DNA of 64,000 bases from Protula sp. h YS-2021 (Eukaryota > Annelida > Polychaeta > Sabellida > Serpulidae), in assembly GCA_949752745.1 (NCBI GenBank), contig OX457029.1:42534500-42598499 (forward strand), written 5' to 3'. Positions 300 to 40,144 of this stretch are shown here, piece by piece. A program made the position numbers and the translations under genes. The number at the start of each line of letters is the position of its first letter. The first letter of the stretch is position 1. A model generated the notes under the pieces. It had not been told where the DNA came from and searched no databases. It worked only from the letters and a program-made list of their open reading frames with translations.

Positions 300-399
300 A
301 GCCCAGCTTACGTACACGTAAGCTGGGGTATTCCTATCGGTCTGCGGGTGGCGTCCGTTAGTTTGTTAGTTAGTTAGTTGTTTATTTAGTAAACTTTGT

Positions 400-640
400 T
401 TCAAAATGCATCTCCTCCTACAATTTTGATCTGATATCATTTATTTATTGTGTGAGGCATCCCTAAGGGGTCGTGCATACGGCTTGTGCTTTTCTAGTCG
501 ATCGGGTGATTTTTGAATTTTTGGCGAATTTTTGAAGAAAAAAATTTAAAATGTATCTCCTCCTACATTTTTGACCCGATGTCATTTATTTTTGGCATGA
601 GGCACCCCTAAAGGGTCGTGCATACGGCTTGTGCTTTTTT
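400..640 (+). repeat. 150-bp satellite of element A, first block
   Basis: About 1.6 monomers of a roughly 150-bp unit. Recognisable parts are AAAATGCATCTCCTCCTAC, TTTTGATCTGATATCATTTA, GAGGCATCCCTAAGGGGTCG and TGCATACGGCTTGTGCTTTT. It is cut at 640 within the T run of TGCTTTTTT by element B and resumes at 3761 with GTCGATCGG, the expected continuation. Confidence 0.75.
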
Positions 641-739
641 AGACCAGCCGACTATGTCGGGATGGTCTTATCTTATCAATAGAGGGGTATCCGTCGTCCG
701 TATGTACGTATGTACGTATGTACGTGTGTATGTACGTGT

Positions 740-3119
740 GTAAACTTTTACTTAAAATGCTTCTTCTCCTTCAGTTTTGATCGGATCCCTCTCAAATTTT
801 ACACGAATGTTTTCTAGGTATACCTCTCTTTAAAAATTATTTTTTTTGGCGCTCCGCCAAAAATTGGCCAAATGGGGGGCATTTCAAATTTTTCGGTTGC
901 CAATTTTCAAAATGCTTCTTCTCCTTCAGTTTTGATCGGATTCCTCTAAAATTTTACACGAATATGCCCTAGGTAGACCTCTTTTGAAAAATTACTCATT
1001 TTGGCGATCCGCCAAAAATTGGCCAAATGGGGGACATTTTTTAATTTTTTGGTGTCAAATTTTCAAATTGCTTCTTCTCCCACAATTTTGATCGGATTCC
1101 TTTCCAATTTTGGATAGTTGTTCTCAGGGTAGACCTGTCTTGAAAAATTACTCTTTTTGGCGATCCGTAAAAAATTGGCCAAATGGGGGACATTTGTAAT
1201 TTTGTGGTTGCCAATTTTCAAAATGCTTCTTCTCCCACAATTTTGATCAGATTTTCTTCAAATTTTGCACCCATATTCCCTAGGTAGACCTATTTTGAAA
1301 AATTACTTATTTTGGCGATCCGCCAAAAATTGGCCAAATGGGGGACATTTTCAAATTTTTTGGTCTACAATTTTCAAATTGCTTCTTCTCGCACAATTTT
1401 GATCGGATTCCTTTCCAATTTTTGATAGTTGTTCTCAAGGTAGATCTCTCTCGAAAAATTACTTTTTTTGGCAATCCGCCAAAAATTGGCCAAATGGGGG
1501 ACATTTGTAATTTTATGGTTGCCAATTTTCAAAATGCTTCTTCTCCCACAATTTTGATCAGATTTTCATCAAATTTTACACGAATGTTATCTAGGTATAC
1601 CTCTCTTTAAAAATTATTTTTTTTGGCGCTCCGCAAAAAATTGGCCAAATGGGGGGCATTTCAAATTTTTCGGTTGCCAATTTTCAAAAGGCTTCTTTTC
1701 CTTCAGTTTTGATCGGATTCCTCTCAAATATTACCCGAATATGCCCTAGGTAGACCTCTTTTGAAAAATTACTCATTTTGGCGATACGCCAAAAATTGGC
1801 AAAATAGGGGACATTTTTTTATTTTTTGGTGTCAAATTTTCAAATTGCTTCTTCTCCCACAATTTTGATCGGATTCCTTTCCAATTTTGGATAGTTGTTC
1901 TCAAGGTAGACCTGTCTTGAAAAATTACTCTTTTTGGCGATCCGCCAAAAATTGGCCAAATGGGGGACATTTGTAATTTTGTGGTTGCCAATTTTCAAAA
2001 TGCTTCTTCTCCCACAATTTTGATCAGATTTTCTTCAAATTTTGCACACATATCCCCAAGGTAGACCTATTTTGAAAAATTACTTATTTTGGTGATCCGC
2101 CAAAAATTGGCCAAATGGGGGACATTTTCAAATTTTTTGGTCTACAATTTTCAAATTGCTTGTTCTCGCACAATTTTGATCGGATTCCTTTCCAATTTTT
2201 GATCGTTGTTCTCAAGGTAGATCTCTCTTGAAAAATTACTTTTTTTGGCAATCCGCCAAAAATTGGCCAAATGGGGGACATTTGTAATTTTGTGGTTGCC
2301 AATTTTCAAAATGCTTCTTCTCCCACAATTTTGATCAGATTTTCACCAAATTTGACACGAATGTTCTCTAGGTATACCTCTCTTAAAAATTATTTTTTTT
2401 GGCGCTCCGCCAAAAATTGGCTAAATGGGGGGCATTTCAAATTTTTCGGTTGCCAATTTTCAAAAGGCTTTTTTTCCTTCAGTTTTGATCGGATTCCTCT
2501 CAAATTTTACCCGAATATGCCCTAGGTAGACCTCTTTTGAAAGATTACTCATTTTGGCGATCCGCCAAAAATTGGCCAAAAAGGGGACATTTTTTAATTT
2601 TTTGGTGTCAAATTGTTAAATTGCTTCTTCTCCCACAATTTTGATCGGATTCCTTTCCAATTTTTGATCGTTGTTCTCAAGGTAGATCTCTCTTGAAAAA
2701 TTACTTATTTTGGCGATCTGCCAAAATTTGGCCAAATGAAGGACATTTTTTAATTTTTTGGTGTCAAAGTTTCAAATTGCTTCATCTCCCACAATTTTGA
2801 TCGGATTCCTTTCCAATGTTTGATAGTTGTTCTCAAGGTAGACCTCTCTTGAAAAATTGTTTTTTTTTTTTTTTGGGCGATCCGCCAAAAATTGGCCAAA
2901 TGGGGGACATTTGTAATTTTGTGGTTGCCAATTTTCAAAATGCTTCTTCTCCCACAGTTTTGATCAAATTTTCTTCAAATTTTTCACGAATACTCCCTAG
3001 GTAGGCCTCTTTGGAAAAATTACTCATTTTGGCGATCCGAAAAAAATTGACCAAATGGGGGACACTTTTTTATTCTTTTGTGTCTAATTTTCAAATTGCT
3101 TCTTCTCATACAATTTTGA
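740..3119 (+). repeat. 155-bp satellite array (about 15 copies)
   Basis: Monomers of 154-156 bp measured between successive TTGGCCAAATGGGGG motifs (865, 1019, 1175, 1330, 1486, 1641). Each has CTTCTTCTCC, TTTTGATCGGATTCC, a GGTAGACCTCT box and the short inverted repeat around GGCGATCCGCCAAAAATTGGCC. Two- and three-monomer higher-order patterns are visible, with alternating CGCTCCGCC and CGATCCGCC variants. Small reading frames in it are repeat shadows. Confidence 0.85.
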
Positions 3120-3121
3120 GT

Positions 3122-3420
3122 ATGGCCGCTCATTTTGATTTGGTACGCTGTGATGACAACTATCTTGCGTGTGACATTATCGCATTGGCTGAAAGCCGTT
3201 TAACAGCCGACGATGATAACAAAAAATTTTTAATAGATGGCTTTCATCCCATACTGAGATGTGGCCAGTTCGTTTCAACAGAATGTCGACGACCTCCGCA
3301 TGGCCTTGCATACATGAAGTGTTGTCCAAGGAGTTCATTTCAACTGCACTCTTTGAGTGTTTACACATTAGAGTAATTTTCAAAGTAATTTTCTTTAAGT
3401 GTTTACACATTAGAGTATTT
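3122..3420 (+). pseudogene. Endonuclease-like (EEP) fragment inside element B
   Basis: About 85 codons follow directly after the satellite. The translation includes ACDIIALAESRL, NKKFLIDGFHPILRC and RRPPHGLA. These resemble the apurinic-type endonuclease domain (EEP fold) of retroelements and of Helentron proteins: an ALAESRL-type strand, a DGFH turn and an RPPHGLAVYVK-type segment. After about 3315 the frame is lost; KEFISTALFECLHIR continues in another frame, so there is at least one frameshift. A 24-bp direct repeat (GTGTTTACACATTAGAGTA) follows at 3357-3420. Recognition is from memory of the family, not a search. 3421-3720 shows nothing recognisable. Confidence 0.4.
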
Positions 3421-3760
3421 TCCTTCAACTAATCAGATTGTATGTAATCCCACCACACACTCTTAACACGACATTAGATCTTGCATTTGCCTCTCCTACC
3501 ACTGCTTTTCCCGAAATTATTCCCTGTCTTTGGTCTTTTCACCACACGCTTGGCATTCTTGTCCCCTTATGAAAGAATTGAAAGAATGACTCCTCATCAG
3601 CCACAACTACACCGAGCAAGTGAGCGAATATTTTCTCCATTCAGTTACGGCTTTTTTCGTAACCGCTGTCTGCCAATTTGATCATGATTTTGTCTGTGAT
3701 TCTTGGGTATATATTCTGTAGGTCACGGCTGGTCACCATGTCCCTGGACATGCTTGTTTA

Positions 3761-4767
3761 GTCGATCGGACATTTTTATATTTTTGGGAAATTTTTTAAG
3801 CGGCTTGTGCTTTCTTAGTCGATCGGACAATTTTTGTATTTTTGGGCAATTTTTTAAGCAAAAATTTCAAAAGTAATTCAAAATGCATCTACTCCTACAA
3901 TTTTGATTCGATGTCATTTATTTTTGGCTTGAGGCATCCCTAAGCGGTCGTGCATACGGCTTGTGCTTTTTTTAGTCGATCGAGTGATTTTTGAATTTTT
4001 GGAGAATTTTTGAAGAAAAAATTTTAAAATGTATCTCCTCATACATTTTTGATCTGATATCATTTTTTTTTTTTGGTATGAAGGATCCTAAAGGGTCGTG
4101 CATACGGCTTGTGCTTTTTAGTCGATCGGACAATTTTTGTATTTTTAGAAAAAAAAACTTCAAAATGCATTTCCCCTTCAGTTTTGAATCGATGTCTTTT
4201 TTTTTTTCTTTTATTTATTTTTTTTTTTGTTTGAGGCATCCCTAAGGAGTTAAGCATACGGCTTGTGCTTTTTTAGTCGATCCGACAATTTCTGTATTTT
4301 TAGGGAATTTTTGAAGAAAAACTTCAAGATGCATTTCCGCCTACAGTTTTTATCCGATTTCATTTATTTTTGGTATGAGGCATCCTTAGGTGGGTGGGGC
4401 ATACAGCTTGAGCTATTTGACTCGACTTGGCAATTTTTGATTTCGGAGGGAATTTTTGATGAAAATACCTCAAAATGCATCTTCTCCTGCAGTTTTGACC
4501 AGACATCATTTATTTTGGGGCTGAGGCGTGTTTAGGGTGTCGTGAATACGGCCTGTGCTTTTCGAGGCGATCATAGAATTTTTGGGGAATTTTCGAAGAA
4601 AAAATTCAAAATGCATTTCCTCCTAGAGTTTTTATCAGATTTCATTTGTTTTTGATACGAGCCGTCTCTAGGGGGTCATGCAAACGGCTTGTGCTTTTTG
4701 AGTGAATTGAAAAGCTTTTTAATTTTTTCGGAATTTTTGAAAAAAAATTAAGTGAATCTCCTCCTAC
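3761..4767 (+). repeat. 150-bp satellite of element A, second block
   Basis: About seven diverged monomers. The marker GGCTTGTGCTTT recurs near 3803, 3958, 4108, 4260, 4551 and 4686, with a changed copy near 4407. Units contain AGTCGATCGGACAATTTTTG and AAAATGCATCTCCTCCTAC-like blocks. Divergence between copies is higher than in the 155-bp array, so this block is older than the nested element B. Confidence 0.75.
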
Positions 4768-6600
4768 AGCGCACATTCGCAGTAGTCCAAATTAAGCACT
4801 GCGCATCGATTCGAGTTAAATAAACATGCGCATTGGTCCGAAATGGGAACCGCGTATCGACGGAAGATAAATAAACAAGTGAACTGGTCCAAAATAAGCG
4901 CCTCGCATCAACGCAAGTTAAATGAACATGCGCACTGGCCCGGAAAAAGAACTACGCATCGACGCAAGTTGAATAGATATGCGCAGTTGTCCGAAATGCG
5001 AACTGCGCATCAACGCAACCTAAAGAAACATGCGCACTGGTCCGAAATGCGAACTGCACAATCACGCAAGTTAAATAAATAAATATGCGCACTGGTCCGA
5101 AAAAAAGAACCGCACATCAACGCAACCCAAAGAAACATGCGCACTGGTCTGAAATGAGAACCACGCATCGACGCAAGTTGAATAGACATACGCAGTGGTC
5201 TGAAATGAGAACCGCGCATCAACGCAAGTTAAATAAACATGCGCAGTGGTCGGAAGAAAGAACCACGAATCGACGTAAGTTGAATAGACATAAGAGTCGG
5301 GCATCGACGGGACTTGAATAAACTTGCATTCTGATCCGCAATGCAAATCGCGTGTCAACGCAAGTTAAATGAACCTGCGCACCGGTCCGAAATGCGAACC
5401 GCGCACCAACGTAACCTAAAGAAACAGGTACACTGGTCCGAAATGCGAACCCGATATCAACGCAAATTAAATAAACATGCACACTGGTCCGAATTGCGAA
5501 TCGCACATCAGCGCAGGTTAAATAAACATTTGCACGGGTCCAAAATAAGTACCGCGCATCAACACAAGTTAAATAAATATGCGCACTGGTCCAAAATGCG
5601 AACCACGCATCAACACAGGTTAAATAAACATGCGCACTTGCGGAAACTGCGAACCGCTCATCAATGCAAGCTAAATAAACAAACACACTGGTCAGAAATG
5701 GGAACCGAGCATTAACGCAAGCTAAATAAGCAAGCAAACTGGACCAAAATAAGCACCGTGAATCAACGCAAGTTAAATAAACATGCGCACTGGTTCGAAG
5801 TGCGAACTGCGCATTAACGCAACTTAAACAACATGCGCACTGTTCAAAATAAGAACCGCGTATCAACTCAGAGAAATTTGCGCATTGGCCTGAAATAAGA
5901 ACCGCGCATCGACGCACGTTAAATAAACATGCGCAGTGGTTCGAAATGCGAACCACGCGCCAACGCAATTTAAACAAACATTTGCACTGGTCCAAAATAA
6001 GCCTCGCGCATCAACGCAAGTTAAATAAACATGCGCACTGGTTCGAAATTCGAACCGCGCATCAACGCAAATTAAATAAACATGCGCACTGGTCCAAAAT
6101 GCAAACCGCGCACCAACGCAAGTTAAATAAATATATGCAGACGTCCAAAATAAGCACCATGAATCACCGCAAGTTAAATATACATGCAAACTGGTCTGAA
6201 ATGCTCACCGAGCAACCTAAGGAAACTTGCGCACTTGTCCAAAATAAGTACCGCTCATTAACGCAAGTAAAATAAACATGCGCATTGGTCTGGAGTAAGA
6301 ACCGCGCATCGATGCAAGTTAAATAAGCATGCACACTGGTACGAAATAAGAACCGCACATCAACACAAGGTAAATAAACATGCGCACTAATCCGAAATAA
6401 CCGCATATCAACACAAGGTAAAAACATGGGCGCTGATCCGAAATAAGAACCGCACATCAACGCAAGTTTAATAAACATGTGCACTGTTCCAAAATGAGAG
6501 CCGCGCATCAACGCAAATTAAATAAACATGCGCACTTGCCTGAACAAGAACCGTGCATCGAGGCAAGCTACATAAATATGCGCACTGGTCCGAAATGCGA
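4768..6600 (+). repeat. 51-bp minisatellite array (about 36 copies)
   Basis: Unit reads roughly CATGCGCACTGGTCCGAAAT, GCGAACCGCGCATCAACGCA, AGTTAAATAAA. At 51 bp (17 codons) it keeps frame, so long open frames appear on both strands, for example 5219-5995 on the minus strand and 5341-5715 on the plus strand. The plus-strand period is HAHWSEMRTAHQRKLNK, the minus-strand period is TSAHVYLTCVDARFAFR. The open frames have no start context, splice sites or domain, and in-frame stops occur between blocks. A second short array of the same unit lies at 59070-59390. Confidence 0.9.
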
Positions 6601-6862
6601 GCGTTATTTGAAGGTATCTATGCAGACTATCCAGTCTACCAGAGATACAAAAAAATCTGTTTCCCATTTTTCTGGGAAAGAAATCTTTGTATGCATTTAT
6701 CGGTCTATGTTCTGGTCCGGTGCTTAATTAATTATTCAGCTAGCTCTTTGCCGTCTCATCTTTTGAAGCCCAATTTTTCAGGGAAATTCCCTTGCTCATG
6801 TACGCTGGAATTGGTCTTTTGCTTTTCGTAAGCTGGGCCTTTGTCCTTGGACAAACTTGTTT

Positions 6863-7440
6863 ACTTTGACCATGGCCGAGGAGGTCCAGGTCACCGAGGT
6901 ACCTCCTACATATCGTCTTTTAGGCCCAAAGCGTCGAAAATAAGCTCAAAATCGCTCTGTCTAACTGTTTTCGAGATAATGCCCCACTTTCGGTTTTGGA
7001 ATTTGATCATGTCCGAGCTGGTCAATTTCACCGAGGACCCCGTACATATGGTCTTTTAGGCCAAAAGAATGGCAAATAAGCTTAAAATCGCTCTATCTCT
7101 AACCGTTTTTGAGGTAATGGTCAGCTTCCGGTTTCTGACTTTGGCCATGGCCGAGGAGGTCAAGGTCAAGGTCACTTACATATGTTCTTTTAGGCCCAAA
7201 GCGTTGAAAATAAGCTCAAAATCGCACTATCTATACCGTTTTCGAGATAATGGCTCACTTCCGGTTTTTAACTTTGACCATGGCCGAGGAGGTCAAGGTC
7301 ACCGCGGTACCTCCTACATATCGTCCTTTAGGCCCAAGGGCTCGAAAATAAGATCAAAATCTAACCGTTTTCGAGATAATGGCCCACTTCCAGTTTTTAC
7401 TTTGAGGATGGCAGAGGATGTCAATCGTTCTCGAAGGTCA
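6863..7440 (+). repeat. AGGTCA-rich tandem repeat, right part
   Basis: About four monomers of the family seen at 1-299, restarting with ACTTTGACCATGG after element A. It carries TCAAGGTCA-type sites, including a doubled one near 7158-7172 and one near 7290. Confidence 0.8.
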
Positions 7441-8752
7441 TGGTTAAAAAAATGCGGATGTTACAGCGTCTAGTCACCCTCTATCAGTGAGCCAGATTTC
7501 ATCACTGTTTAACAATTGGGAAAAACCAAAACGCTGCAGCCAACTTGACGATGGACGACTCTAGTCTTACGTCCCGAATTCACTTAGATGTTCAACCACA
7601 ATTTATATGTACTCGACATATTCTTACTCGAAAAAATAGGATGTTTAGAGCAAATTCTTGTTACTTTGAACCGGCCAAAGTACTTAGGGATTATTTTGGG
7701 TCTTAATGATTTATAAAACGTTGGCTAAAAACCGTAAATGGCAGTTAAATCAAATTGAGGTGCGCTGTCAGGATAATTCGGATCAAAGTTTCGTATGGTG
7801 CTCAGTGACCTATTTTGTTTTGACTAATTCTAATAGGTATTAACAGATTTAAGCGAGAACAAAATCGCACGGTCCATTCTTGGCGTCATTTCGCAATATT
7901 GCGAAAGTTTTATGGCACTCGCTGGGGTAAAATTAAAGATAAAAATCTAAATCGAGATCAATATAAGTGCGACTAAATAAACTGTGTTGTTTCAGTATTT
8001 AACAGTAAAAAATAGTTTTATGATAAATTTATTTATTTTTGCTAAAAGGTTGAACGTTTTCCCGTGGTAGTTATGGAAACCTCGAGGCGTACTTGAGATA
8101 ACCCAGTTCTGGTACACAGCTGGTGCAGCAGCTTGCCGATCTGTTCACACAGAGCAAGTTCTACCACATGTTATCATTTGCATTGTTTAGTTTTAGAACA
8201 CTAATTCCAGCACTCGCGTTTTTTTTCTTTTTTGTTCCTCATGGTGTAAATCATTGGCTTCGATATCAGCATTCACTATCAGGATCTCGCCCATGTTTTA
8301 TCGCCTGATATTTGGGGAGTGTTAAAAGTCTGCGTGCGTGCATTGATGCAAAAATGTTTCTCCTCATTAGCATACAAATTAATTTGTCTGCACAGTGAAT
8401 AGGCATAAATGTGGATCACCCAGATGGTGGGTGCGAGTGTTTTTAGCGCTCCGTGTTCAGTTGCCTGGTAGCCGACCGTAAATCGCACGAAGTAATCAGG
8501 ATATGACGTCATAATGACTCACGCATATCGTGTTATCGAACAACGACTAATAACTGGGCCGGTTTTATAAGGTCCCAGTTCTTTGTACACGTATTTGCCT
8601 TTATATATTGATCATGACTTCCTTGTTTTTCGTTCTAACTGTCTTGTGAAAGAGAGGGGGAGGGGGGGAGGGCGTGTATTTGTTTGAGGAGTCGATGGTG
8701 CGGTGAGCAGCAGTTTTTGCGTACTCACCACGTGGTGTTTCTCCCCCTGCAG
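7441..8752. other. No gene recognised upstream of the receptor exon
   Basis: AT-rich unique-looking sequence. I looked for an exon encoding the N-terminal half of the receptor ectodomain (the CxC-x4-C cysteine pattern) and found none. The first coding exons are probably upstream of the window, so this stretch and the repeats before it may be intronic. Confidence 0.5.
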
Positions 8753-9091: not shown

Positions 9092-9129
<38 letters not shown>

Positions 9130-12100
9130 TACTGCCGATTATTTATGTGGTATGGTTGAAAAAGAGGCGGTGGAGGGGGAGGGATCAGAGAGCACTGAGA
9201 TATAATTTATAAGGACGGCTTTGTTGGTGCTTCTAGACAATGATTCTGCTGAAGCCGCACCTGTACAACTAGCCTTAGCCATTCTGCTGCCAGTGGCTCT
9301 ACTCGTCATTGCTTTACCGCTCGTGCTGCTCGCATGCAGGTAAGCTCTCTCTTCATCCAATCACATGCTGAAAAAAAATCACGTGATAGCTCTGACCGTC
9401 CTGCTGCCCGTGGCGCCGCTCATGATTGATTTACCAATCTCTGACCCAATCACGTGCTCGTAACATCAAGCCTCAATAGTTCACGACGTCATGGAACTAA
9501 CGTAACAAGTTCTAAATTGGCAACTTAATATTAAAAGCCGTTGGACAGCAGCAGATGCAGTGTTCTGCAAATATTCTGAAATATGTTTCGAAAACCCTGT
9601 ACAACCGGGAAAACTCTAAAAAAACTAGTTTTTTTTAAGATTTTCAAATATAGTCTTCAATTATTTTGAGATATGTTTTGCGAAATAACTTTATGAGTCA
9701 CATGTCCACAAAATCTCGCAAATTCACAGAAATGGCGGAAGAAAAGTATGTTGGACTATGGTTGCGGATACGGCTCGTATATTTTTGTTTTGTTCTCGTT
9801 GCAGGTACCGACACCACCGGCGCATGCGTCGCTTGGAAAGTCGCCACAGGAGGGTGCTAGAAGAGGATCACTTCCAGTGTCAGCAGCCCACACACAACCC
9901 CCTCAACGTAAGACCTCGTGACCTCTCAAAGTGTTACCCCTACATGAGACCTCATTTCCCTCACAACGCCATTCCAGTGCCAGTAACACGCTCATAACTC
10001 ACTCCTCGTAAGGCCTCATTCCTTCTGAAAGTCCTCCGTTTTCCAGCAGGTGTCCCACAGCCCTGTCTACGTAATGCCTCATTCCCTTTCAAACCATTTC
10101 CAGTGCCATCCCGCCCGCTCGTAACCCGCTGCTCGTAAGGCTTTATCTCCTCGAAAAACCCTCTCAGTTGCAGCAGCTCGCACACAACCCGCTCAACGTA
10201 AGGCCCCATTACCTGTCAAAACCTTTCCTTTTCCAGCAGCTGTCGCACAACCCTCTACGTAAGCCTCATTCCCACTCAAAGCCTTCCAAGTGCCAACAGC
10301 CCACCGACAACTCACTTAGCGTAAGGCCTCATGGTCTCTTGAAGCCAGGAATACATTAACTGTACTGAAAAAAAAAATACTTTTAGCATGTTATCTAGGA
10401 AAAAAATTCAATCAGTAAGAAGTGAAAAATTTAAACAAGAAATCTTTCTGATAATATTTGTGAGTTGTTTGATGTGTAAGTTAAAAATCCAGCCTGTTAA
10501 CAGTGTATGTGCGATGAGGGCCGTTGTTGTGGTTGGCAGGGCCTGATTGAAGGCACACAGAGCAGCGGCAGCGGGTCGGGTGTGCCCTTACTGGTGCAGA
10601 GAACCGTCGCCAGACAGGTGTCCCTCGTCGAGCTCATAGGCAAAGGAAGGTAAGGCGCCGTGTTGCTCACGGGGGAGGGGGGGCGGGAGGGGCGGGGGAT
10701 GGCTGTTCTTGTTTCAATTTATTGTCATCCTTTGTCACTATAATGATCCATTGGCGACATGTTAATGTGTATATAAAAACGTCAGAAGTGTTTTAATATT
10801 GAAAAAGACTTGCTGGATGCAGCAAGTACACTTGGCGAGAATGTACTGGAATGTGAAATATTGATTCTGTAAAAATTGCCCATTTCTGGATGGTATTCAA
10901 AAAGGCTTGAGATCTGTTGCTAATATGACAGGCTACGTCAGTGAGTTTTGTGGCGGTTGTCTGCAGGTACGGCGAGGTCTGGCGCGGGACCTACCATGGT
11001 GAGAGCGTGGCTGTCAAGATCTTCACCTCTCGTGACGAAGCCTCGTGGCGGCGAGAGTCGGAAATCTACAACACAGTGCTGCTGCGCCACGAGAACATCC
11101 TCGGCTTTATCGCATCGGATATGACGTCACGCAACTCGTGCACGCAGCTTTGGCTCATCGTGCACTGCCATCCGCTGGGATCGCTCTACGACTATCTCAA
11201 TACTCACCGGCTGGATAAAAGCAGTCTGTTGCAGCTGGCTCACAGCGCGGCCGCGGGCCTCGTACATCTTCATACAGAGATCTTTGGTATGCAGGGCAAG
11301 CCGGCCATTGCGCACCGTGACGTCAAGTCCAAAAACATTCTGGTGAAAAAGAACGGCCAGTGCTGTATAGCGGACCTTGGCCTAGCCGTGATACACTCGC
11401 GGACCAATAATCTGCTAGATGTAGGCCAGAACAATAAGGTGAGTTCTTAACTAAAGTGGTTGCATTCACAAGAATTACCTGTACCGTTAACAGGTTCCTT
11501 TTACGACGCTCTCAGCAAACAGAACTTTCTGAAGTTTCTGAATTTATAAAATTTGACCTTTTCAGGGAAGAAAAGCCACCTAAAAGTGGCTTGGCGAGAT
11601 CAGGTGATTCCCGTTGTTGGTAGTGCAGTTAACCAATGTGAATACGGCGGCAGACGTCCCTGGTTCTTTTTCAAGTTTTTTTTTTTTTGTGAAACTCAGC
11701 CTGTACTTTTTGTTGACCGGTTTTTTTCGATTTCTAGACAAAATCATAATCCATAATAATGGAAAAGGGAACAAAGTAATTGTTTAATCACGGATGGTCG
11801 ACTATTTTTCTGTGGTCTTCATGGCTTTGTTATTGTTTTCGTTATTCTGCCTCTAAGGTAATATATGACGAGTGGGACCAAAAATCAATCAGTACCCGGA
11901 TACGGTGCTGGGGGAGCAAGAATTTAATCCGATTTGCCGAAGTGATTGTAAGAAAAAACTGGCCGTTAGGACAGCAAAGATATTTCACATTATCCAAATG
12001 TTAAGCGTCTTCAGATTTGTGTGCATGCCGGTGATACAGTGTGGTGTACGAGGACGTTGTGTTGCAGGTGGGAACGAAGCGGTACATGGCACCGGAGCTC

Positions 12101-14718: not shown

Positions 14719-14735
14719 GTGAGACATTCACACAT

Positions 14736-21450: not shown

Positions 21451-22048
21451 CCGACAGCAGGGCACAAAGACCGTAGAACAGTTCCTTTGAGGTGCAGGCC
21501 ACAATATTCGATGGATGCCGTGCAGAAATCAGCCTGGGTTGGAGTAGTGTTGTGCATCGACAAAAACAGTTTTCATACTGACTCTAGTGTCTATTTTAAT
21601 TTCGGGAAACGTAGATCTTCGGTATTTCAGACTTTGGCTAGTTTTCATTAAATGTACCTTTTTTGAATGTGAATTCATTTTGGGAATTTTTTAGTGAAAT
21701 CGATTTGCAAGTAAACCCAATCAAAACTTATTTTAATATTCGTTTTCGGTTTTTTAATATAAATAAAAAATGAAATGTTGATGCTGCCATTTTTTTCCGA
21801 TTTGCACTGTGTCATTATTTCCTTGTGCCATTTTTTCCATGTGCCATTTTTGTCGTTGTCATTTTCCCGTACCCCCAATGTCTTGCAGGACTCATCTATT
21901 TTAATAGTATCAATCTCACTGGATGCTAATCTGTAAAATAAATCAAAATCAAAACTGGACTAGGGGGTAGCGAAAATTCCACTTGTGGCTTCAAAAAATA
22001 CCATTCCAAACTCTTAAAATTTAGAATTAACCATGACTGAAACAACGA

Positions 22049-22915
22049 CTGACTTTTCTTGGTGTTCTTATTGACACCATCAACTGTAAGCTATCGATCC
22101 CAACCGAGAAACTAGAAGATACGCAAACAACTCTGCATGAACGGGCCAATTCTGATCAGAAACGTGTGTCCAAACGGGACATACAAAGTCTGCTTGGTAA
22201 ATTAAGCTGGATCGCCCGGGTAGTACGTGTAGTACGCCCAGCCATGCGCCGCCTCATCTCGCTAATGACGTCACTGCGCCGCCCCCACTTCCGCGTCCGT
22301 ATCTCCGCCGATACGCGCCGCGATATTGCTACGCTCAATCGACTATGCAGTTCCTTCAACGGCACGTGCCATTTCGCTCTCGAAAGGACTTCGCCCGATC
22401 CTGCATATATCGTGACGGACAGCAGCTCGGCCGCTGCTGGAGCAGCCTTGGTCCGCGGGCCACTCGCCATGGACTGGCTGTACTGCAATTGGCATATCGA
22501 TGCCCCGCCCCTTGAAGCACAACACATCAATGTCAAGGAACTGGCCGCCGTACATCTCGCCCTGGAACGGTGGAAAACCCTATATGCGGGTCGGAAAATG
22601 AGGGTACTGACTGACAATACGGCCACGCTCCACGCCCTGAATACTGGTTCTATACGGAGCATCACTGCATCAGACATTCTCGTTGATATAATGTTGATAT
22701 GCGTTCAGTATAATATTTGTATTACTGCCTCATTCATACCCACACGTCAAAATATGTTGGCTGATAGTTTATCGAGACTATGCAATTTATCGCATGCCAC
22801 CTACGCCTTCGCACACGTACCAGTATCGGACCTACACAACCATATGTCTCACGCCTCAGTAGTTTACCTGTTTCAGGAGTGGTCCGGCAAACAGCGATAC
22901 TGGATATGGAAGTGA
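22049..22915 (+). pseudogene. Reverse transcriptase C-terminus plus RNase H (5'-truncated)
   Basis: Open frame from the A1 border to TGA at 22913. RLTFLGVLIDT is the conserved segment after the RT palm; SLLGKLSWIARVVR is the thumb-like segment. RNase H follows: IVTDSSSAAAGAAL (first Asp), INVKELAAVHLALERW (Glu), VLTDNTATLHALN (second Asp), and FIPTRQNMLADSLSR (last Asp). The catalytic RT palm with its YXDD box is missing. Its end overlaps the recombinase start by 10 bases in another frame. Codon use is GC-rich compared with the surroundings. Confidence 0.85.
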
Positions 22916-23871
22916 AACAGCTGCGTTCGGCTGCCTATTCCGACAATACCATCGCCGCATACAACACCCACATCAAGGCATTCGTTTCGTTTTGTGCCTA
23001 TTTCCGCTGTCGCCCTGTCCCCGCAGACACTGACACCCTGCTACGTTATGCTTGTTTCCTCGGTCGCACCCTCAAGCCCCAGTCCGTGAGGTGCTATCTG
23101 TCCGCGATCCGGTTTTTGCACTTGGAGCACGACCACCCTAATCCCACGGAAGACAACTATCGCCTAAAGACACTGCTCAAAGGGCTGGAGACCAAGCATG
23201 CCACCCCACCTAAGCAAAAACTCGCGCTATCTCTGGACATCCTAGTACGTTTACTTCAAGTGCTGGATCTCGACAGGTCAATAGATATGTGTTTTTGGGC
23301 GGCATGCCTAGTGGGTTTCTTTACGTTTTTCAGAAAATCCACCCTGTTAACACGTTCACAGGATAGTCATGACTGTTGCAGAGACTTATGCCGCCGTGAC
23401 GTGACGTTCCTGGCAGATGGAGCCATAATTCGTGTGAAACAGACGAAGACCATGCGCAACTTCACTCGACAACTTGTCGTCCCCCTCCCTCGCATCCCAG
23501 ACTCTGACCTGTGTCCGGTCTATGCCCTCGGCCGCCTCCTGACCACGACTCAATCCCCCCCTGATTCCGCCCTGTTTTCCTTCAAACGTGACGGCGCCCT
23601 CATTACCCTGTCCCACGCAATTTTCGGCGCGATGCTGAAACAGAGGCTTCAGAGTATAGGGCTGGACGACAGTTACTACAGCGGTCACAGCCTCCGTCGG
23701 GCAGGGGCAAGTTTTGCCCTGGCATGCGGTCTCCCCCCTGAGGTGATAAAATCGCAAGGAGACTGGAAATCAGACGCCTACCTCCGATACACAGACGTCC
23801 CCTTCGACATGCGCATGAGGTGTTCTCGAGTCCTCGGTAGGAACGCCGCAAAGATCACAACTAAACTCTAA
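22906..23871 (+). CDS. Tyrosine recombinase of the DIRS-like element
   Basis: About 321 aa from ATG 22906 to TAA. The N-terminal SAM-like part (SDNTIAAYNTHIKAFVSFCA, SVRCYLSAIRFLH) is followed by a catalytic domain: Arg in GFFTFFRKSTLL, HSLRRAGAS as the H-x-x-R box, GDWKSDAYLRYTD with the nucleophile Tyr. All key YR residues are visible and the frame is intact, so this ORF could still encode an active integrase, although the RT of this copy is lost. It inserts the circular DNA intermediate of the element in the nucleus. Confidence 0.88.
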   Translation: MEVKQLRSAAYSDNTIAAYNTHIKAFVSFCAYFRCRPVPADTDTLLRYACFLGRTLKPQSVRCYLSAIRFLHLEHDHPNPTEDNYRLKTLLKGLETKHATPPKQKLALSLDILVRLLQVLDLDRSIDMCFWAACLVGFFTFFRKSTLLTRSQDSHDCCRDLCRRDVTFLADGAIIRVKQTKTMRNFTRQLVVPLPRIPDSDLCPVYALGRLLTTTQSPPDSALFSFKRDGALITLSHAIFGAMLKQRLQSIGLDDSYYSGHSLRRAGASFALACGLPPEVIKSQGDWKSDAYLRYTDVPFDMRMRCSRVLGRNAAKITTKL

Positions 23872-24750: not shown

Positions 24751-24889
24751 AAATAGTATCAATCTCACTGGATGCTAATCTGTAAAATAAATCAAAATCA
24801 AAACTGGACTAGGGGGTAGCGAAAATTCCACTTGTGGCTTCAAAAAATACCATTCCAAACTCTTAAAATTTAGAATTAACCATGACTGA

Positions 24890-25365
24890 GGAGGTCAAGG
24901 TCACCGAAGTACCTCTTACATTTCGTCCTTTAGGTCCAAAGGGTCGAAAATAAGTTTAAAATCTGTAACCGTTTCGAGATAATGACCAAAAATATACGAA
25001 TACTAATTTTAACCAAATTTCAAAATATTGTCATTTTTTATTTTTTTTATGAATCGGAATAAAAAAACAATTTTGTACACCTTCAATATGTACTCTACCT
25101 AGATATGAAATTTTGAAATATCTACTTGATAGTTTTGAAGATCTAACCTGAATAAGACGTCGAAAATACACCAAGCTCATAAGACGTTGAAAATACACTA
25201 AGTTCCAAAAATCGACGTCGCACAACTTCAATATGTTCTATCCGTGTGTGAAATTTCAAAACAGTCTGAAGTATAGTTTTGGAGATTAAGAAAGGACACA
25301 CATGCGGACGGACACACGGGCGAGCTCATAACTACATTCCTCCGTTACACGGAAAATAATAAAAC
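24890..25365 (-). repeat. AGGTCA repeat remnant and a hairpin-element fragment
   Basis: 24890-24990 is one monomer of the AGGTCA-rich family (GAGGTCAAGGTCACCGAAG). From about 25000 to 25365 lies sequence that, read on the minus strand, begins with a small hairpin TCCGT/ACGGA, then about 25 bases, then GTGTGTCCGTCCGCATGTG and short imperfect repeats (ATTTTGAAATATCT, GACGTCGAAAATACACYAAG). That is the same order as elements A-C, but no 3' end was found. Confidence 0.5.
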
Positions 25366-28355: not shown

Positions 28356-28406
28356 TTTCTATGTAAGATAATCCTGATATTCAGTTCGAGGTGTTATCGA
28401 ATGGTC

Positions 28407-28414: not shown

Positions 28415-28439
28415 ACTGCATTTATATAACTCCAGTTCT

Positions 28440-31725: not shown

Positions 31726-34700
31726 TTTTTTTTTCGTTTTCCTCTCTCTTTGTCCACACAACATCGAAATTAAAACCTCTGTTGAACGTCTATTTGTGCA
31801 GAGGCGTAAGTAAACGTTTCCTGAAATTTTGTCAGAAAATACTGTATAGGTGTTTGAAAAAGAGGTAGAAAGACGGATCACAAGCATTTGTATTTCAGTC
31901 TTTCAGCCAGTCTGGCAACTTTCGAGGATTAGATGCCATGCAATACTCCGATATCTCTGACATTCAGTGACTCTGATCGGACTACTCTTTGAATGCAAGA
32001 CCCAGCAACGGAAGCATTTCTTTGTTTTGCTCTTCTTCCTTTGTAGAATAAAATATATAACAAGCATCTTGGCGTAGAAAAAATGAGCAAAAATGTCAGA
32101 AAAAATGGAAAAACAGTACGAGCAAAAATTCAGAAATAGGGAGTTTGTACGAGTGAGGCGTTTTTGTCGCACTTTATATTTTGAGGCGTTTTGGTCGCGA
32201 GCCTTATGTCGCGAGGCGTTTTGTCGCGAGGCTTTTTGTCGTGATACCACTGCAGACACAACAAAAAAGTTTTAAAAAAATAACCTACTTCATGACTCAA
32301 ACGGTGCATAAATGCGTGTCTACGACTCTAGCTAACAGCGAATAGAATACATGCTGAACAAATACCACTTGAAATTAAAGCACTGGAAAGCTTTTGTGAA
32401 GTGAGGCATAAAACAAAGACAGTGTATTTGTTTATGCTCTTTGCTTAAAACCAGGTGAACGCAACGATTAAGCGAAACAATTTCGTTTCAAATGGATCAA
32501 ATCCGAATTTCGATTAGATCGGCTCTAGAGTGGGAACCAATTTAAATTCCGCCTTTTAAATAATAAGTACCTAAGAAATGACCAATGTCAACATATATAC
32601 AAAAGTGTAGGATTAGAAAATGTACCGAAAAGTCGAAAAAGTGAGAAAAAAATATACGGCCCCTCTGAGGAACGTTGGTCTACTTGAATTTGGACCTGTT
32701 AAGAGCGTCTATGACAACCCACACAGATGTATGTAAAACCCAGTTTAGGCGATTTATTTTGGTAGGTGAAAGTAGAGCGAGAGTGGAATCTATGTGTAAA
32801 ATCCTTTTTTTTTTTGGGGGGGGGGGTACATCTAATAAAAACAATCCAATGTTTAGTCACCACAGATATAGACATGTATAACCTAGATGAAATCGAGTGG
32901 TCGTTCGACAGAAATTTAAACTTGTGGTTTCATGTGTTTTCCTTGTTCTTCAGCTTTCGCGAAAGCTTGATTTAAATAAAAACTGATATTTTATAGTCGC
33001 CAAACATACAATACGGAATCTTGTAGGCCGATTACATTGATCCCACGTCGCTTGATGACAAGTAAAGCTGTAATTTTGGTTGTAGAAGTTAGTCTATACA
33101 TTGTCGTAGTAACGTAGAAACGTCTCCTTGGTGTCAAAGAAGCGATATCATTATTGCGATCTGAAAGTGAAATAGTTGGAGGTCTTAACAGAGAACAAGA
33201 CAATGCTACGAAGCTGTGGCAATGTTACTAAAACGATGTCACTAGAGAGCGAAAACCGACCTGAAACACGATGCAGTCGCTTCACTTAACGAAGTCAATA
33301 ACATTTTGACTTTAGCTCCGATTGCCTTAGTTAGGCGAATGCAATGCGTCAGATCACCTATCACGGAATTCAAAATTATTGCTTAATTGGTTCTTTTAAA
33401 AAAAATACAAGAAAGTTTAATAAAACGCAAATAAAAAGGAAGTGAATCGGTAGAAATCGATGTTTGGAAAGGTGACTCAAGTTTGGTTCACAGCGGAATT
33501 CATTATTTATGGTCTCACACTTTAGCTACAAGAGGAAACTTTAACGTATGTAATGGAATGTATTATCGAAAATTTTTTCCTGCCCCAATCCCCCCCCCCC
33601 CAAAAAAAAAAAAATTCCAGATATATGAAGCGTACAATATTTTCAGACAGCTCGATAATTGTTTGTAAAGAGTGGGACTGTTCCTTGGACAATTTGCAGG
33701 ACTTAGTTTTTTTTTGCCGCATTTTTGGTAAATTTTCCGAGTAAGCGCGCATTGTGTCTCAATCTAGATCGTATTGCACCCTGGGATATTTGCAACTCGG
33801 TATGCTACACGTTTTAGCACACTTCAAATGATGGAAATTATAACTGTTTCGGCAAAAAGTTTTGAAAAGTGCAATCCAACGTCCGCTGTGCTATTAATGA
33901 CGTCGAAATATAACCAACATTTGAGCAGATAACTGAATACGAGTCCTTAATGTATACGCTCCGAAATATCAGAAACAGCTCACTTGCCACGAATTGTTAC
34001 GGACTGCGCAAACTTGCGTACGCCTGCATGTAAAGTGGTATTGTAGAAACCACATTTTTGCGACAGTTTAGCATAGTATTTTCGTAAAGCTTAGAACAGT
34101 CAGTTAGGAGATGTCATGTTTACATGTCCATGTCTTAGTGAGATCATTTTGTGGGCATGTAGTTACTATTGGCATTGCTGTAGCATTTGTCAAATGTGCT
34201 TGTAATTTTAGTGGCGATTTTTCTTGAAATAAAGACATGAATGACAAATTTGTACTGTCTCATTTCTCTTTGAAGTTGGGTATTGTCAAGTAGGGTACTG
34301 CCTTATGTCGGAAATTCTCCAATCAAATACTGTCATGCCGGTCACTCCCAGGCCCCATTGTCACGGAGATATTTTCATCCTGGTGTTTTTATTCTTTCGG
34401 TACAGGAATGGCTTTAATACACCTGTACACACTTCCGTTCTCGGGGGGGGGGGGAGGAGGGGGCGGGGGGGGGGGGGGGTAGTTGTTCAGGACAGACGAT
34501 AACACTTCACTGGCATATGGAAGCGACCGACTTTGCGAGCAGTTTTAAATGTTCTTTTTCTTTTGCGATTGACTCACTTTCATTAAAACTGTTATCTGTT
34601 CTTTTTACGATTCTGAGTGCAGTATAGAATAAGGCATACAGCAAATTTATATCTATGGTACGAGTAACCGTAAGAGTGATGCACAAGCGAGCTTGTTTTT
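31726..34700. other. AT-rich intergenic stretch with one short tandem repeat
   Basis: At 32140-32255 a short tandem unit like GCGTTTTGTCGCGAG occurs about six times. It resembles one arm of the tandem-repeat TIRs at 17-21 kb, but I found no inverted partner. Poly-G/poly-C tracts at about 32816, 33591 and 34443-34479. No gene recognised. Confidence 0.5.
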
Positions 34701-34799
34701 AGCCCAGTTGGCTTTTCAGCCAACAGGGCTATACAGATGGGGGCAAGTGTCGTCCGTCCGTCCGTCCATCCGACCGTCTGTTCGTCCCGCGACCGTTAA

Positions 34800-35490
34800 A
34801 AGTGGAATAACTTTTTTACTTTTTATCTGATTCTTACCAAATTTTAAACACGAGTTCCTAACCCTTTATTGCATTAGGAAATTTTTTTATTTTTTGGTTT
34901 AAACCATTTTTGGCGATTTTATTGCCAATTTGGGCAAAATACGAAAAAACCTATGTAGTCCCTCATTTTTCATCGGAAGATTCCGAAATTTTTTATGAAG
35001 AAACTAGAACTAAGGGGTCAAAAAAGTACTTTTTTTGATTTTTGATTTTTGAATTTCGCCTTATTTTTTAATCTACTGAGCTTCAAAGTTTGCAACTTCT
35101 AAAAATTGGCAAATTTCCAATTTTTTTTAAACAAAGTAGTTAAAGTGGAATATCTTTTTTATTTTTTATCCGATTCGTACCAAATTTTAAACACGAGTTT
35201 TTAACCTTCTACTGCATTAGGATTTTTTTTAATTTTTTGGTTTAAACCATTTTTGGCGATTTTATTGCCAATTTGGGCAAAGTACGAAAAAACCTATGTA
35301 GTCCCTCATTTTTCATCGGAAGATTCCGAAATTTTTTATGAAGAAACTAGAACTAAGGGGTCAAAAAAGTACTTTTTTCGATTTTTGAATTTCGCCTTAT
35401 TTTTGAATCTACTGAGCTTCGAAGTTTGCAGCTTTTAAAAAATTGGAAATTTCCATTTTTCTTCTTAAAATAGCAAAGTTTCAATTTGCA
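34800..35490 (+). repeat. 345-bp tandem repeat, two copies
   Basis: GTGGAATAACTTTTTTAC at 34802 and GTGGAATATCTTTTTTAT at about 35147. Both copies contain TTTTTGGCGATTTTATTGCC and CATCGGAAGATTCCGAAATT and end TTGGAAATTTCC. Confidence 0.85.
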
Positions 35491-35574
35491 GAGGGGCAGA
35501 ATATGTTACATGCAAGTACTTCTGGTTGGACTTTTCAGTAATTTTGTTGTCAGTGGGTCATTTCTATGATATTT

Positions 35575-36600
35575 TCAAGTGGGCGATAATAGGGAACATT
35601 GGGCGATAAAGCAACAAAGTTGTAATTTTCGCTTTAAAAGTGCAGGAATCAATTCTATGACCCGAAAATATGATAAATGTGATATTTTTCGCGTGGGCGA
35701 TAACAGGGAATATTGGGCAATAATGCAAGAAAGTTGTAATTTTCGCTTTAAAAGTGCAGGAATGAATTGTATGACCCGAAAATATGCTAAATATGATATT
35801 TTTCGGGTGGGCATTAATAGGGAACATTGGGCGATAATGCAAGAAAGCTGTAATTTTCGCTTTAAAAGTGCAAGAATCAATTCTATGACCCGAAAATATG
35901 ATAAATATGATATTTTTCGTGTGGGCGATAATAGGGAATATTGGGCGATAATGCAAAAAAGTTGTAATTTTCGCTTTTAAAGTGCAGGAATCAATTCTAT
36001 GACCCGAAAATATGATATTTTTCGTGTGGGCGATAATAGGGAACATTGGGCGATAATGCAAGAAAGTTGTAATTTTCGCTTTAAAAGTACAGGGATCAAT
36101 TCTATGACCTGAAAATATGATAAATGTGATATTTTTCGGGTAGGCGATAATAGGGAATATTGGGCGATAATGTAAGAAAGTTGTAATTTTCGCTTTAAAA
36201 GTGCAGGAATCAACTCTATGTCCCGAAAATATGATAAATATGATATTTTTCGGATGGGCGATAATCGGGAACATTGGGCGATAATGCAAGAAAGTTGTAA
36301 TTTTCACTTTTAAAGTGCAGGTATCAATTCTGTGACTCGAAAATATGATAAATATGATATTTTTCGGGTGGGTGATAATAGGGAACATTGGGCGATAATG
36401 TAAGAAAGTTCTAATTTTCGCTTTGAAAGTGCAGGAATCATTTGTATTACCCGAAAATATGATAAATATGATATATTTCGGGTGGACGGTAATAGGTAAT
36501 ATTGAGCATAATGCAAGAAAGTTGTAATTTTTATTTTAAAGGTGCAGGAAGCAATTATATGACCCGACAATATGATAAATGTGATATTTTTCGGGTGGTG
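35575..36600 (+). repeat. 114-bp tandem array (about 9 copies)
   Basis: Unit of 114-115 bp: GGCGATAATAGGGAACATTG, GGCGATAATGCAAGAAAGTT, GTAATTTTCGCTTTAAAAGT, GCAGGAATCAATTCTATG, then an inverted repeat ACCCGAAAA and TTTTTCGGGT around ATATGATAAATATGATA. As 38 codons it stays open on the minus strand across 274 codons (35564-36388) and on the plus strand for 133. One copy lacks 12 bases yet stays in frame. No domain seen. Confidence 0.9.
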
Positions 36601-37029
36601 GATAGCCTCTTTTTCATTTTTCCCACGCAAATTAGAATTAATTAGGGTCCATATATTTTTGACGAAACCCCCGCTTTGAAGTTTACCAGGGCATTTGAAG
36701 TACGCCTGTCAGGGTAGACTATCCAGGGTCTGGATATTCCTCACCCGATCATTTATCGATTAAACGCTGGCCTAGTACCACCCTGGATAGGAATCCACGT
36801 TTAAACTAGAGCGGCCAGTGCACACAAAACATAAGAGTGCAGGCTTATATTACAAACTTTCAATCGATACCTACTTAAGTTTCTTGTTTTTGTGAACAAA
36901 AACAAATGTCTCCCCGACAAAACCCATGACCCCCCCCCCCCTCCCCCCCAAACTGAAACAAAATATTCATTTCTGCAAACATAACCTTCATTCATTGTAA
37001 AAATCTTAAAATAAACCAAACAGATGGTT

Positions 37030-37310
37030 GTCACTAAAACAGATATAAATGAGCATCTTTTTTCATCGGAGTCTGAAAGGTGGTCGCTAAAACGGGTTTT
37101 ACTGTAGGCCCCTCTTATCCAGATCTGAAGTTGGTCACTATAGCAGTTTTACTGTACGTTACATTTTTATCCGGGTCTGGAAGGTGGTCAAGACAGGCAG
37201 GTTTTACCGTACGTCTTTTTACCTGAATGTGGAAGGGGTCACGACAAACGGTTCTTACCTTACATCTTTTTATCCGGGTCTTGAAGATGGTCGGGATTTT
37301 TTTTTTGTAA
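37030..37310 (+). repeat. About 60-bp imperfect tandem repeat
   Basis: Four to five units around GGTTTTACTGTACGTCTTTT, TATCCGGGTCTGGAAGGTGG and TCACGACAAACG-like blocks. Diverged. Confidence 0.65.
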
Positions 37311-38140
37311 CCATCATCCTCCACCCCCCCCCCCACCCCCGCCCCCCAGCTATTTACTGTAGGTCCGACTATAAACACAACCCTAACCCTTTTACCCAAG
37401 GCAACGGTAACAGTCTGTACCCTAACTGTAGTTATAGCATGATAGACTACCTTGTCTTCGCACATTCCCATCGGCCAAATAGCACTAGGAAGGCATTCTT
37501 CATAACTGCGCATCAGAGATGACGCACCTCGGTGGGAGAAGGGGGAGGCATTTCGTAGGCAAAATGGTGAGCTGCTCCTCATAACACAAGATATCAGACG
37601 ACCCAATTTATAGCGAAAAATGCTTCTGCACACAATGCTAATCGATACAGCATGGCTCCTATATATAGCACATCTTCGCAAGCTAATCAAGTATGCGGCG
37701 AAAAAAAAATCAATAGCTAGAGCTGCTTAGAGCTATAATACGACAATAGCATTCCATGACCTCGTAGATAACGACTCCATCATGCACCGCAACTGACACT
37801 GACCCCTGACTGAGTGGTATGTTACGTAACAACCACAGATGAGAAATGCACAAAAAGCTCAATTTCAGGCAATAACAAATAGCAATGGACCGACAATAAT
37901 GCTGTTACTGTTTTTAAAGCTTTCTGAAGAATGCAGGAACACTAGAAAATCTTCGGAAAAATCTTCCGAAATCCCCAGCGCAGTTAACACCCATGCATAG
38001 ATAACACAGCAGCCAAAAATGGGGAGGTTGGGGTGGGGGGGGGGGGGGGAGGCTGTTGACGTTATGCACCTTCTTGATTTTCTATACGAATTCAATAATG
38101 TTTAATAAAACCGTGTGACCTATCCGAGGAATAAATACAC
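37311..38140. other. Non-coding part of element D
   Basis: Poly-C tract at about 37325-37345 and poly-G tract at about 38033-38050; a 191-codon minus-strand frame (37115-37690) crosses repeat and unique sequence and has no recognisable domain. Nothing else seen. Confidence 0.4.
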
Positions 38141-38149
38141 CGAATTTAA

Positions 38150-39540
38150 AGTCGATCCGACTTTCCGATGTCGAGATATTTTGCTTAAGAACAGATAACT
38201 TTTTACCTGTCAAAAGTTGAAACAGTCGTCTGACTGAACCAAGGAATATCCATATAAAATTTTAAGTCGATATGACTCTCCGCTATCGAGATATTATGCA
38301 TAAAAGATCTGGTTCAAAATATACACATTTTACGCGGTGACGTCATACGCCGCTTTCGTTCGTTCTACTCGTGAAAAATATTTAGAGTTTCTTTCGGACC
38401 TACCAAGCAATAATCCATAGTTTCAGTTTTCTCCGGCGTCCAGCAGCTGAGAAATTTCGCACACAAGATTTTTACAAAATGACGTCATACACCCGCCCTA
38501 ATCACGTGACACGCCAAAAATTGATGGAACAGTCCGGCTGACCTAAGGAATATTCATATAAAATTTGAAGTCGATAGAACTTTCCGTTATCGAGATATTT
38601 TGCACACAAGACCTTGTTTATAAAATAAAACCTATTTTACGTGATGACGTCATACGCCGCATTCGTTCGTTCTACTTGCAAAAAAATTCTATAGAGTCTT
38701 TCGGACCTAACAAGCAACAATCCTACCAAGTTTCAACTTTCTCCGATGTTCAGCAGCTGAGAAATTTGGCACATAAGATTTTTACGTAATGACGTCATGC
38801 ACCTGCCCTAATCAGGTGACATGCGTAAAAAGTTGACAAAACCGTCCGACTGACCCAAAGAATATCTATGTAAAATTTGAAGTCGATAGAACTTTCCGTT
38901 ATCGAGATATTTTGCACACAAGACCTTGTTTATAATATATACATATTTTACGTGATGACGTCATACGCCGCATTCGTTCGTTCTACTCGCGAAAAAAATA
39001 TATAGAGTTTTTCGGACCAACCAAGCAACAATCCCACCACGTTTCAACTTTCTCCGATGTTCAGCGGCTGAGAAATTTCGCACACAAGATTTTTACGTAA
39101 TGACGTCATACGCCTGCCTTAATCCCCTGACATGCGCTAAAAATTGATAGAACCCGCCGACTGACCCAAGGAATATTGATATAAAATTTGAAGTCGATAG
39201 GACTTTCCGTTATCGAGATATTTTGCACACAAGATCTTGTTCAAAATATATACATATTCTGCGTGATGACGTCATACGCCGCATTCGTTCGTTCTACTCG
39301 CGAAAAAAAATCTACAGAGTCTTTCGGACCAACCAAGCAACAATCCCACCAAGTTTCAACTTTCTCCGATGTTCAGCGGCTGAGAAATTTCGCACACAAG
39401 ATTTTTACGTAATGACGTCATACGCTTGCCCTAATCACGTGACATGCGTCAAAAGTTGATAGAACCGTCCGACCTTACCAAGGAATAATTCGATCAAGTT
39501 TGAAGTCGATCCGACGTTTCGTTCTCGAGATATCTTGCAC
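38150..39540 (-). repeat. 311-bp satellite with palindromic CRE sites
   Basis: CTTTCCGTTATCGAGATATT recurs at about 38580, 38891 and 39204 (period about 311), with older copies before and a changed one after. Each unit has two TGACGTCA palindromes. The eight perfect copies are at 38338, 38480, 38645, 38790, 38956, 39101, 39267 and 39413, alternately about 145 and 165 bp apart. CACGTGAC-like sites follow some of them. Ends in the CA/GT microsatellite at 39562-39630. Confidence 0.9.
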
Positions 39541-40144
39541 ACAACACTTTGTTCACAACAGACTGACACACACACACACACACACGCACACAGACACACA
39601 CACACACGTACACACATACACACACACAGAACGTACAAACACTATATGTCTCCCCTTGGTCGGGGAGACATAATAATCGTATGCAACAAAAGGCTCGAAA
39701 TAAGTGCATATAAGAAAGGACGTTATTTAAATTTTGGAGTTCCACTTCTCTTTGATATCAAAAACAAAAAAAATGGAGAAAAATTCCTGTTTTTACATAT
39801 ATATTTTTATTTGACAAATATCGTACCGTGTTCTGGATAGGATGTTCCAAAACTGTATGCACATTTTTATACTCACTTGAAACAAGGCCCAAGATAAGTA
39901 ATAAAAGAAAGGACTTTATTTTAATTTTTACATCCGACTTCTGTTTGAATTTAATAACAAATTGCAGTAAAATTCCTGTGTCTGCATTTTTCCCATATAT
40001 TACAAATATTCAGAAATTTTCATAATTTCAGCATAATTTAATATAAAAAAAAAAACATTCAACCAGATCAGACTGTCTTACCATTTTCCAAGAGGAACAA
40101 GACTGAATCTTCAACTGGGCCACTGTCACTTGACAGTCTTGTTA

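Follow-up and report, generated by a model that had tools for sequence, protein, structure and literature searches.

The 64,000-nucleotide stretch of the Protula sp. h YS-2021 genome analysed here (contig OX457029.1, positions 42,534,500 to 42,598,499; hereafter the window) contains three elements, A, B and C. Their anatomy makes them very probably HINEs, non-autonomous transposons of the Helentron type, and they represent three terminal types. The enzyme that copies them is likely a rolling-circle Rep/helicase/endonuclease. The Helitron/Helentron membership proposed in the initial annotation is supported by the finding of all the structural HINE marks that were tested, by the genome-wide occurrence of the terminal signature and by a Helitron-type Rep match with an endonuclease downstream of it and in frame in the same genome. 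The marks found are subterminal inverted repeats (subTIRs) at both ends, an inverted repeat (IR) beside the 5′ subTIR, a 3′ palindrome and a core of microsatellite plus satellite-like array, and, for A and B, insertion at a TT or T-rich site without target duplication. In all three elements the order is a T-run, AGNCCAG, a type-specific arm, the complement of that arm at once, a GTCC/GTAC/GTTA microsatellite and tandem arrays; the IR beside the 5′ arm, the microsatellite and the tandem-repeat core belong to HINE anatomy. The 5′-TC, CTRR-3′ and AT target of canonical Helitrons were not found, the ends being AG...CTTG in T-runs. A, B and C would be new members of a group whose anatomy, compensatory stem changes included, is already known from flies, mites and oysters.

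The shared 3′ signature was borne out, A, B and C each having a perfect palindrome (7-nt arms around a 2-nt spacer) followed directly by CTTGTT and preceded by the inverse of the 5′ arm, which ends 1 nt (A), 2 nt (B) and 1 nt (C) before the palindrome to give exact subTIRs of 12, 9 and 9 nt. Each strand of the window holds 15 such palindromes, a point in favour of chance palindromes within low-complexity repeats. CTTGTT is common to three of the 15 on the + strand. Of 200 shuffles, 198 had a maximum of 1 palindrome per tail and two a maximum of 2. The excess over shuffled sequence expected by the initial annotation is present, 2000 dinucleotide shuffles read on both strands giving 10 cases of stem plus tail and two that also had the arm, against three and three observed, and stem plus tail did not occur in a smaller run of 20 window shuffles. 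A covariance model built from these same three ends scores them at E 1.3e-11 to 3.1e-10, with the next match in the window at E 0.29, and identified no fourth 3′ end there. Genome counts were made in the window's own 863-Mb assembly with the same patterns read backwards as control. The pattern CTGGNCN{3,4}TGTCNNNNGACANNCTTGTT, taking in B ends, C ends and others, has 840 + 810 exact matches (1650) and the A-type pattern TTTGTCCNNGGACAAACTTGTT has 1044 + 1096 (2140), each with 0 in the backward control. The shuffle counts, and above all these 3790 exact matches, refute a chance origin of the signature, the probability of which is negligible. The strict end pattern had no match in viral contigs or in bacterial/archaeal contigs (0 and 0), while a looser pattern matched three places in the bacterial collection and one in the viral collection, none of the four with a 7-pair stem, and these were taken as chance.

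The claim that the structure is what is kept is likewise supported. Across A, B and C three of the seven stem pairs are changed on both sides and four are invariant, and among the first 100 listed of the 1650 ends, 68 form all seven pairs, 25 six and 7 five, the query leaving three of the seven pairs free to vary and the 100 ends being 45 distinct strings, many from few families, so that these are not 68 independent events. The same inference from compensatory stem changes was published for DINE-1 in 2008 (PMC2374699). Over their last 60 bases A, B and C are pairwise 59–62% identical, below the 80% subfamily threshold of PMC4067079. The description of the bodies as unrelated was too strong, since a monomer block of 37 nt is common to A and B at 89% (E 1e-8) and a weaker one of 34 nt links B with C (E 1e-4); A and C have no match below E 0.05. 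Similarly, the arm said to be private to each element is so in its type-specific part, but the T-run and AGNCCAG are common to all three. A second occurrence of the 51-bp array of A, with no recognisable HINE ends, lies at 59064-59400.

Within 10-kb stretches fetched around 20 of these genome matches, which held 23 pattern matches, nine copies with both ends were found, comprising six of B-type (905–4358 bp), two of C-type (L043 and L044; 5224 and 5684 bp) and one of a further type, D (1971 bp); having been chosen for an exact inverse arm upstream, they cannot prove 5′/3′ pairing. Their sequence is common up to AG and CTTG, with unrelated flanks, and at least two Ts precede AG in nine of nine, the TT after CTTG being part of the query. 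The limits of A, B and C are better placed at AG...CTTG, with Ts flanking both sides (Table 1). Locus L053 is a candidate sibling of A. Empty sites, which had been suggested as a means of fixing the ends, were aligned for A and B; they are paralogous, lie within T-rich runs and have no flanking duplication beyond ambiguous Ts. The host sequence of A is a 138-bp satellite, in which monomers free of an insertion have, for example, the sequence GGTTTTT(A/G)ACTTTG. B lies within the 146-bp repeat of A, where most monomers free of an insertion show GC followed by a T-rich run and AGTCGATCG, so that B must have entered after A. Joining the flanks of C gave no empty site in the window. These data bear on whether the elements are MITE-like or other terminal inverted repeat (TIR) DNA transposons, moved by the cut-and-paste action of a DDE transposase and with the arms as TIRs, a reading in keeping with arms inverted at both ends and one once applied to DINE-1 (PMC2374699). 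It is very unlikely here, as the 3′ arm is subterminal, the CTTG tail is constant, neither empty site has a target duplication beyond ambiguous Ts and B carries an endonuclease-like remnant.

No ORF (open reading frame) for Rep, helicase or endonuclease, as in an autonomous Helentron, was found inside A, B and C, the Rep, PIF1 helicase and endonuclease profiles having no match in their 56 ORFs of at least 60 amino acids (aa). Weak Pfam names in the element ORFs include 14 families at E 0.1 or better, the best being DUF7664 at 6.5e-5. As to the autonomous partner with Rep and helicase sought by the initial annotation, a Rep match and an in-frame endonuclease are present in the genome, but no autonomous copy with the same ends was found. 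The Rep family PF14214 (Helitron_like_N) has 27 matches in this genome compared with 0 of 14 control genomes. Two of them are at C8:41619339 and C2:24290586. The match at C8 lies within an open frame of 2347 aa, and locus L056, carrying PF14529/PF03372 (E 7e-10, 6e-8), begins some 2.5 kb downstream of it and shares its reading frame (2862 nt = 3 × 954 from the first base). By our own reading a putative PIF1-like C-terminal sequence, with no profile match, precedes the L056 endonuclease. The remnant in B at 3119-3373 aligns to this endonuclease over 31 aa, where 39% of residues are identical (E 1e-4), a score reached by one of 2000 shuffles. Of 459 candidate recurrences of the remnant in the genome, 150 were scored, the one in B among them; no related loci were confirmed in viral contigs. 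Matches of the remnant to ADK (E 0.25) and to two PDB rows (E 0.3–1) were discarded. L047 has, upstream of its 3′ end, a stretch related to a second piece of B (3420-3569), the two being 48% identical across 33 aa.

Several results weigh against the assignment to the Helentrons. No autonomous copy with A, B or C ends was found, and in the 4.9 kb beyond the C8 endonuclease ORF no palindrome precedes CTTGTT, with one imperfect palindrome (8 pairs, 5-nt loop, one mismatch allowed) preceding CTTGAC. A single continuous Rep...endonuclease ORF at C8 is suggested by frame and length. Nothing relevant to the B remnant was returned by searches of Pfam, PDB and protein collections, the second piece of B, tried as an endonuclease C-terminus, did not rise above shuffles (159/2000), and one element ORF has a weak match to a SWI2/SNF2 ATPase (E 0.024). 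Finally, DNA folding gives the 3′ hairpins a stability no greater than that of shuffled sequence (z -0.23, -0.34 and -0.82), and closure of the 2-nt loop described initially is not predicted, folding giving instead 6 bp and a 4-nt loop. Thermodynamic support for the 3′ hairpin is therefore weak, and it is symmetry and covariation, rather than stability, that carry the claim. The 5′ hairpins, missed previously, are far more stable than shuffles (z -6.2, -5.1 and -6.9 for A, B and C).

A constant end with an arm particular to each element had been proposed as a recognition code, and composite copies bear on this. The D-type end (CTGGTCACAATGTC[CT]CTGGACA...) is present in eight of 30 fetched 3-kb loci, six of which hold the last 196–237 bp of A inside the D end at 80–87% identity (in two pieces in L022). 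The A tail stops 61–65 nt before the D end, or 14 nt in L028, and takes in the subTIR and palindrome of the A type together with CTTGT, mismatched in some copies. The spacer between A tail and D end is homologous in five of the six and mostly deleted in L028. The two D loci without an A tail are L005, with a related spacer headed by TTTTT and so a candidate empty site, and L034, with an unrelated spacer. The flanks of the six composites differ except for those shared by L017 and L029, leaving five distinct flanks. Full-length L049 (1971 bp) is a single copy that combines a 5′ end of B-like kind and a D end with an A-type 3′ end between them. Copying thus likely ran through the A-type end in the D composites, either because the A end was no longer recognised (a tail of CTTGTACA or CTTGTGCA, arm changes) or because a matching arm was demanded. 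For 13 of the 23 3′ ends a nearest 5′ signature, of whatever arm, was present; by eye it was of the end's own kind in nine (six B, one C and two D, the latter a B-like variant), a non-matching A-type in three and not classable in one.

Such data raise the possibility, which we consider real though short of even, of a cognate-end code in which the Rep complex, having begun at a given 5′ arm, would stop only where the inverse of that arm marks a 3′ end, each arm serving as an address and the palindrome and CTTG being generic. The A-type 3′ end 14–65 nt inside the D end in six of eight loci, the limits of L049 at a B-like 5′ and a D 3′ end despite its internal A-type end, and the nine own-kind signatures of 13 would all be in keeping with this. 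Against it, the internal A tails have CTTGTACA or CTTGTGCA in place of CTTGTT, and mutations are present in a number of their arms or stems, such that they may be dead terminators, and bypass is known for Helraiser, in which the 3′ hairpin acts as a terminator that can be bypassed (PMC4778049). Moreover the common flank of L017 and L029 reduces the six cases to five distinct flanks, three of the 13 nearest signatures were mismatched A types with one unclassed, 10 of the 23 ends had none in reach, and the arm core GACCAG is common to B- and D-type. Of the proposed code, the arm and outer stem pairs particular to each type on a constant core stand, but the A end inside D, while it fits a code, fits plain bypass or a dead terminator also.

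For the HINE assignment itself the following course can be envisaged. Helentrons elsewhere in the genome would supply Rep/helicase/endonuclease, the enzyme would nick at the 5′ T|AG junction and one strand would be peeled off, with the 3′ palindrome and CTTG marking the point of stopping and rejoining, before the displaced strand enters a TT site. With less confidence, the arm common to both ends may allow the machinery to distinguish its own 3′ end from that of another type. Taken further, this would be a lock-and-key ending, with a constant nick signal (T|AG, CTTG|T) and an arm present three times (at the 5′ end, in the 5′ hairpin and before the 3′ palindrome), such that the Rep complex ignores foreign terminators, a speculative proposal that is probably incorrect in this full form. 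If true, elements could nest yet copy whole, as D copies with an internal A terminator appear to have done. In the literature searched, which was only partly covered, no account was seen of a foreign terminator passed over inside a HINE. Whether the 3′ hairpin of a Helentron is generic or matched to the 5′ end could be answered by counting 5′/3′ pairings genome-wide, since the thousands of ends in this single genome belong to several types and include nested and composite cases.

Table 1. Positions in the window of elements A, B and C and their parts
Feature	Position	Strand	Basis
Element A, non-autonomous Helentron/HINE (probable)	300..6859	+	ends, empty site, 2140 genome matches of 3′ end
A, 5′ arm AGCCCAGCTTACG and adjacent complement, strong 5′ hairpin	300..327	+	DNA fold z -6.2
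A, microsatellite-like stretch (GTCC/GTTA)	352..380	+	direct reading
A, core tandem repeats, ~146 bp	3880..4768, plus 399-640 left of B	+	
A, core tandem repeats, 51 bp	4773..6602	+	
A, 3′ end: subTIR 6827-6838, palindrome 6840-6855, CTTGTT 6856-6861	6827..6861	+	
Element B, HINE (probable), nested in A's own 146-bp repeat	641..3756	+	empty sites, siblings
B, 5′ arm and complement (5′ hairpin)	641..668	+	fold z -5.1
B, tetranucleotide microsatellite (GTCC/GTAT/GTAC)	691..740	+	
B, core tandem repeats, ~155 bp x 15	754..3119	+	
B, remnant, likely Helentron-type endonuclease domain	3119..3373	+	alignment to L056 endonuclease
B, 3′ end: subTIR 3726-3734, palindrome 3737-3752, CTTGTT 3753-3758	3726..3758	+	
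Element C, HINE (probable)	34701..40141	+	ends; siblings L043, L044
C, 5′ arm and complement (5′ hairpin)	34700..34731	+	fold z -6.9
C, GTCC microsatellite	34751..34788	+	direct reading
C, core tandem repeats, ~343 bp then 114 bp	34790..36604	+	
C, 3′ end: subTIR 40112-40120, palindrome 40122-40137, CTTGTT 40138-40143	40112..40143	+	

Other features were seen in and around the elements. Inside C, the stretch 36906-39671 is bounded by ATGTCTCCCCGAC ... GTCGGGGAGACAT (13-nt inverted ends) and holds 311-bp repeats, possibly another nested mobile element. The 5′ end of C is preceded by CTTG and a T-run within a 6-bp palindrome, ACAAGC GA GCTTGT (34680-34700); that CTTG might mark a head-to-tail junction, but no 3′-type stem lies ahead of it in the sequence. 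At the other end (40096-40143), AACAAGACTG, the perfect complement of C's final 10 nt CAGTCTTGTT, sits 28 nt upstream; for A and B no comparable complement of the last nucleotides, of at least 7 nt, was found within the 100 nt searched. The 138-bp satellite hosting A is scattered over the window (1-299, 6857-7424, 24876-24987 and 60169-60491). Elsewhere, RNase H-like and integrase-like ORFs with weak Pfam matches lie at 22037-23871, a possible DIRS-type retroelement, and a pogo/Tigger-like transposase in two frames (HTH_psq, DDE_1) lies at 61538-62873; the first of its relatives to carry a name comes from Gigantopelta aegis, a gastropod (54%). Likely host gene exons are present at 10929-11450, 48429-48839 and in neighbouring ORFs, which match activin-receptor, kinase, PI3/PI4-kinase and WD40 domains; the activin-receptor and PI4-kinase exons fit an animal host.

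Compared with known systems, the elements described here resemble canonical Helitrons such as Helraiser in a 3′ hairpin near the end and in likely terminator bypass, but lack the TC...CTAG-type ends and the AT target (PMC4778049). Further comparison literature comprised PMC5139131, PMC8268682, PMC11136912 and PMC7992393. DINE-1 of Drosophila has a subTIR, a partial IR, a GTCY microsatellite, TT preference and a 3′ stem with seemingly compensatory changes (PMC2374699); all of these, the stem being one of 7–11 nt a few nucleotides after the 3′ subTIR, are common to the elements described here, whereas arms and core differ and several types occur here within one genome (PMC2374699; PMC4067079). 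HINEs were named and tied to Rep/helicase/endonuclease Helentrons in PMC4067079, where HINE-Mo of the mite Metaseiulus, like A, B and C, has a palindromic 5′ subTIR region, a 3′ palindrome and Ts at both borders and is a Helentron deletion derivative, as A, B and C would be; its 3′ palindrome is ~8–35 bp from the terminus, whereas here it stands directly before CTTG. The layout of Cg_HINE from the oyster Crassostrea gigas has the same order and satellite-like cores (Vojvoda Zeljko et al. 2020, PMC7492417). As in Cg_HINE and the pearl/CvA/DTC84 group, the elements have a 5′ subTIR, an adjacent complementary IR, a GTCC-type microsatellite, an array core, a 3′ subTIR followed by a palindrome and T-rich insertion without target duplication, although the subTIRs of B and C are 9 nt compared with the usual 11–12; the comparison is one of layout (PMC7492417). 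In that study none of the ten autonomous oyster elements could be related to HINEs, and the Protula elements bear on this relation of such HINEs to autonomous Helentrons, there left unresolved (PMC7492417).

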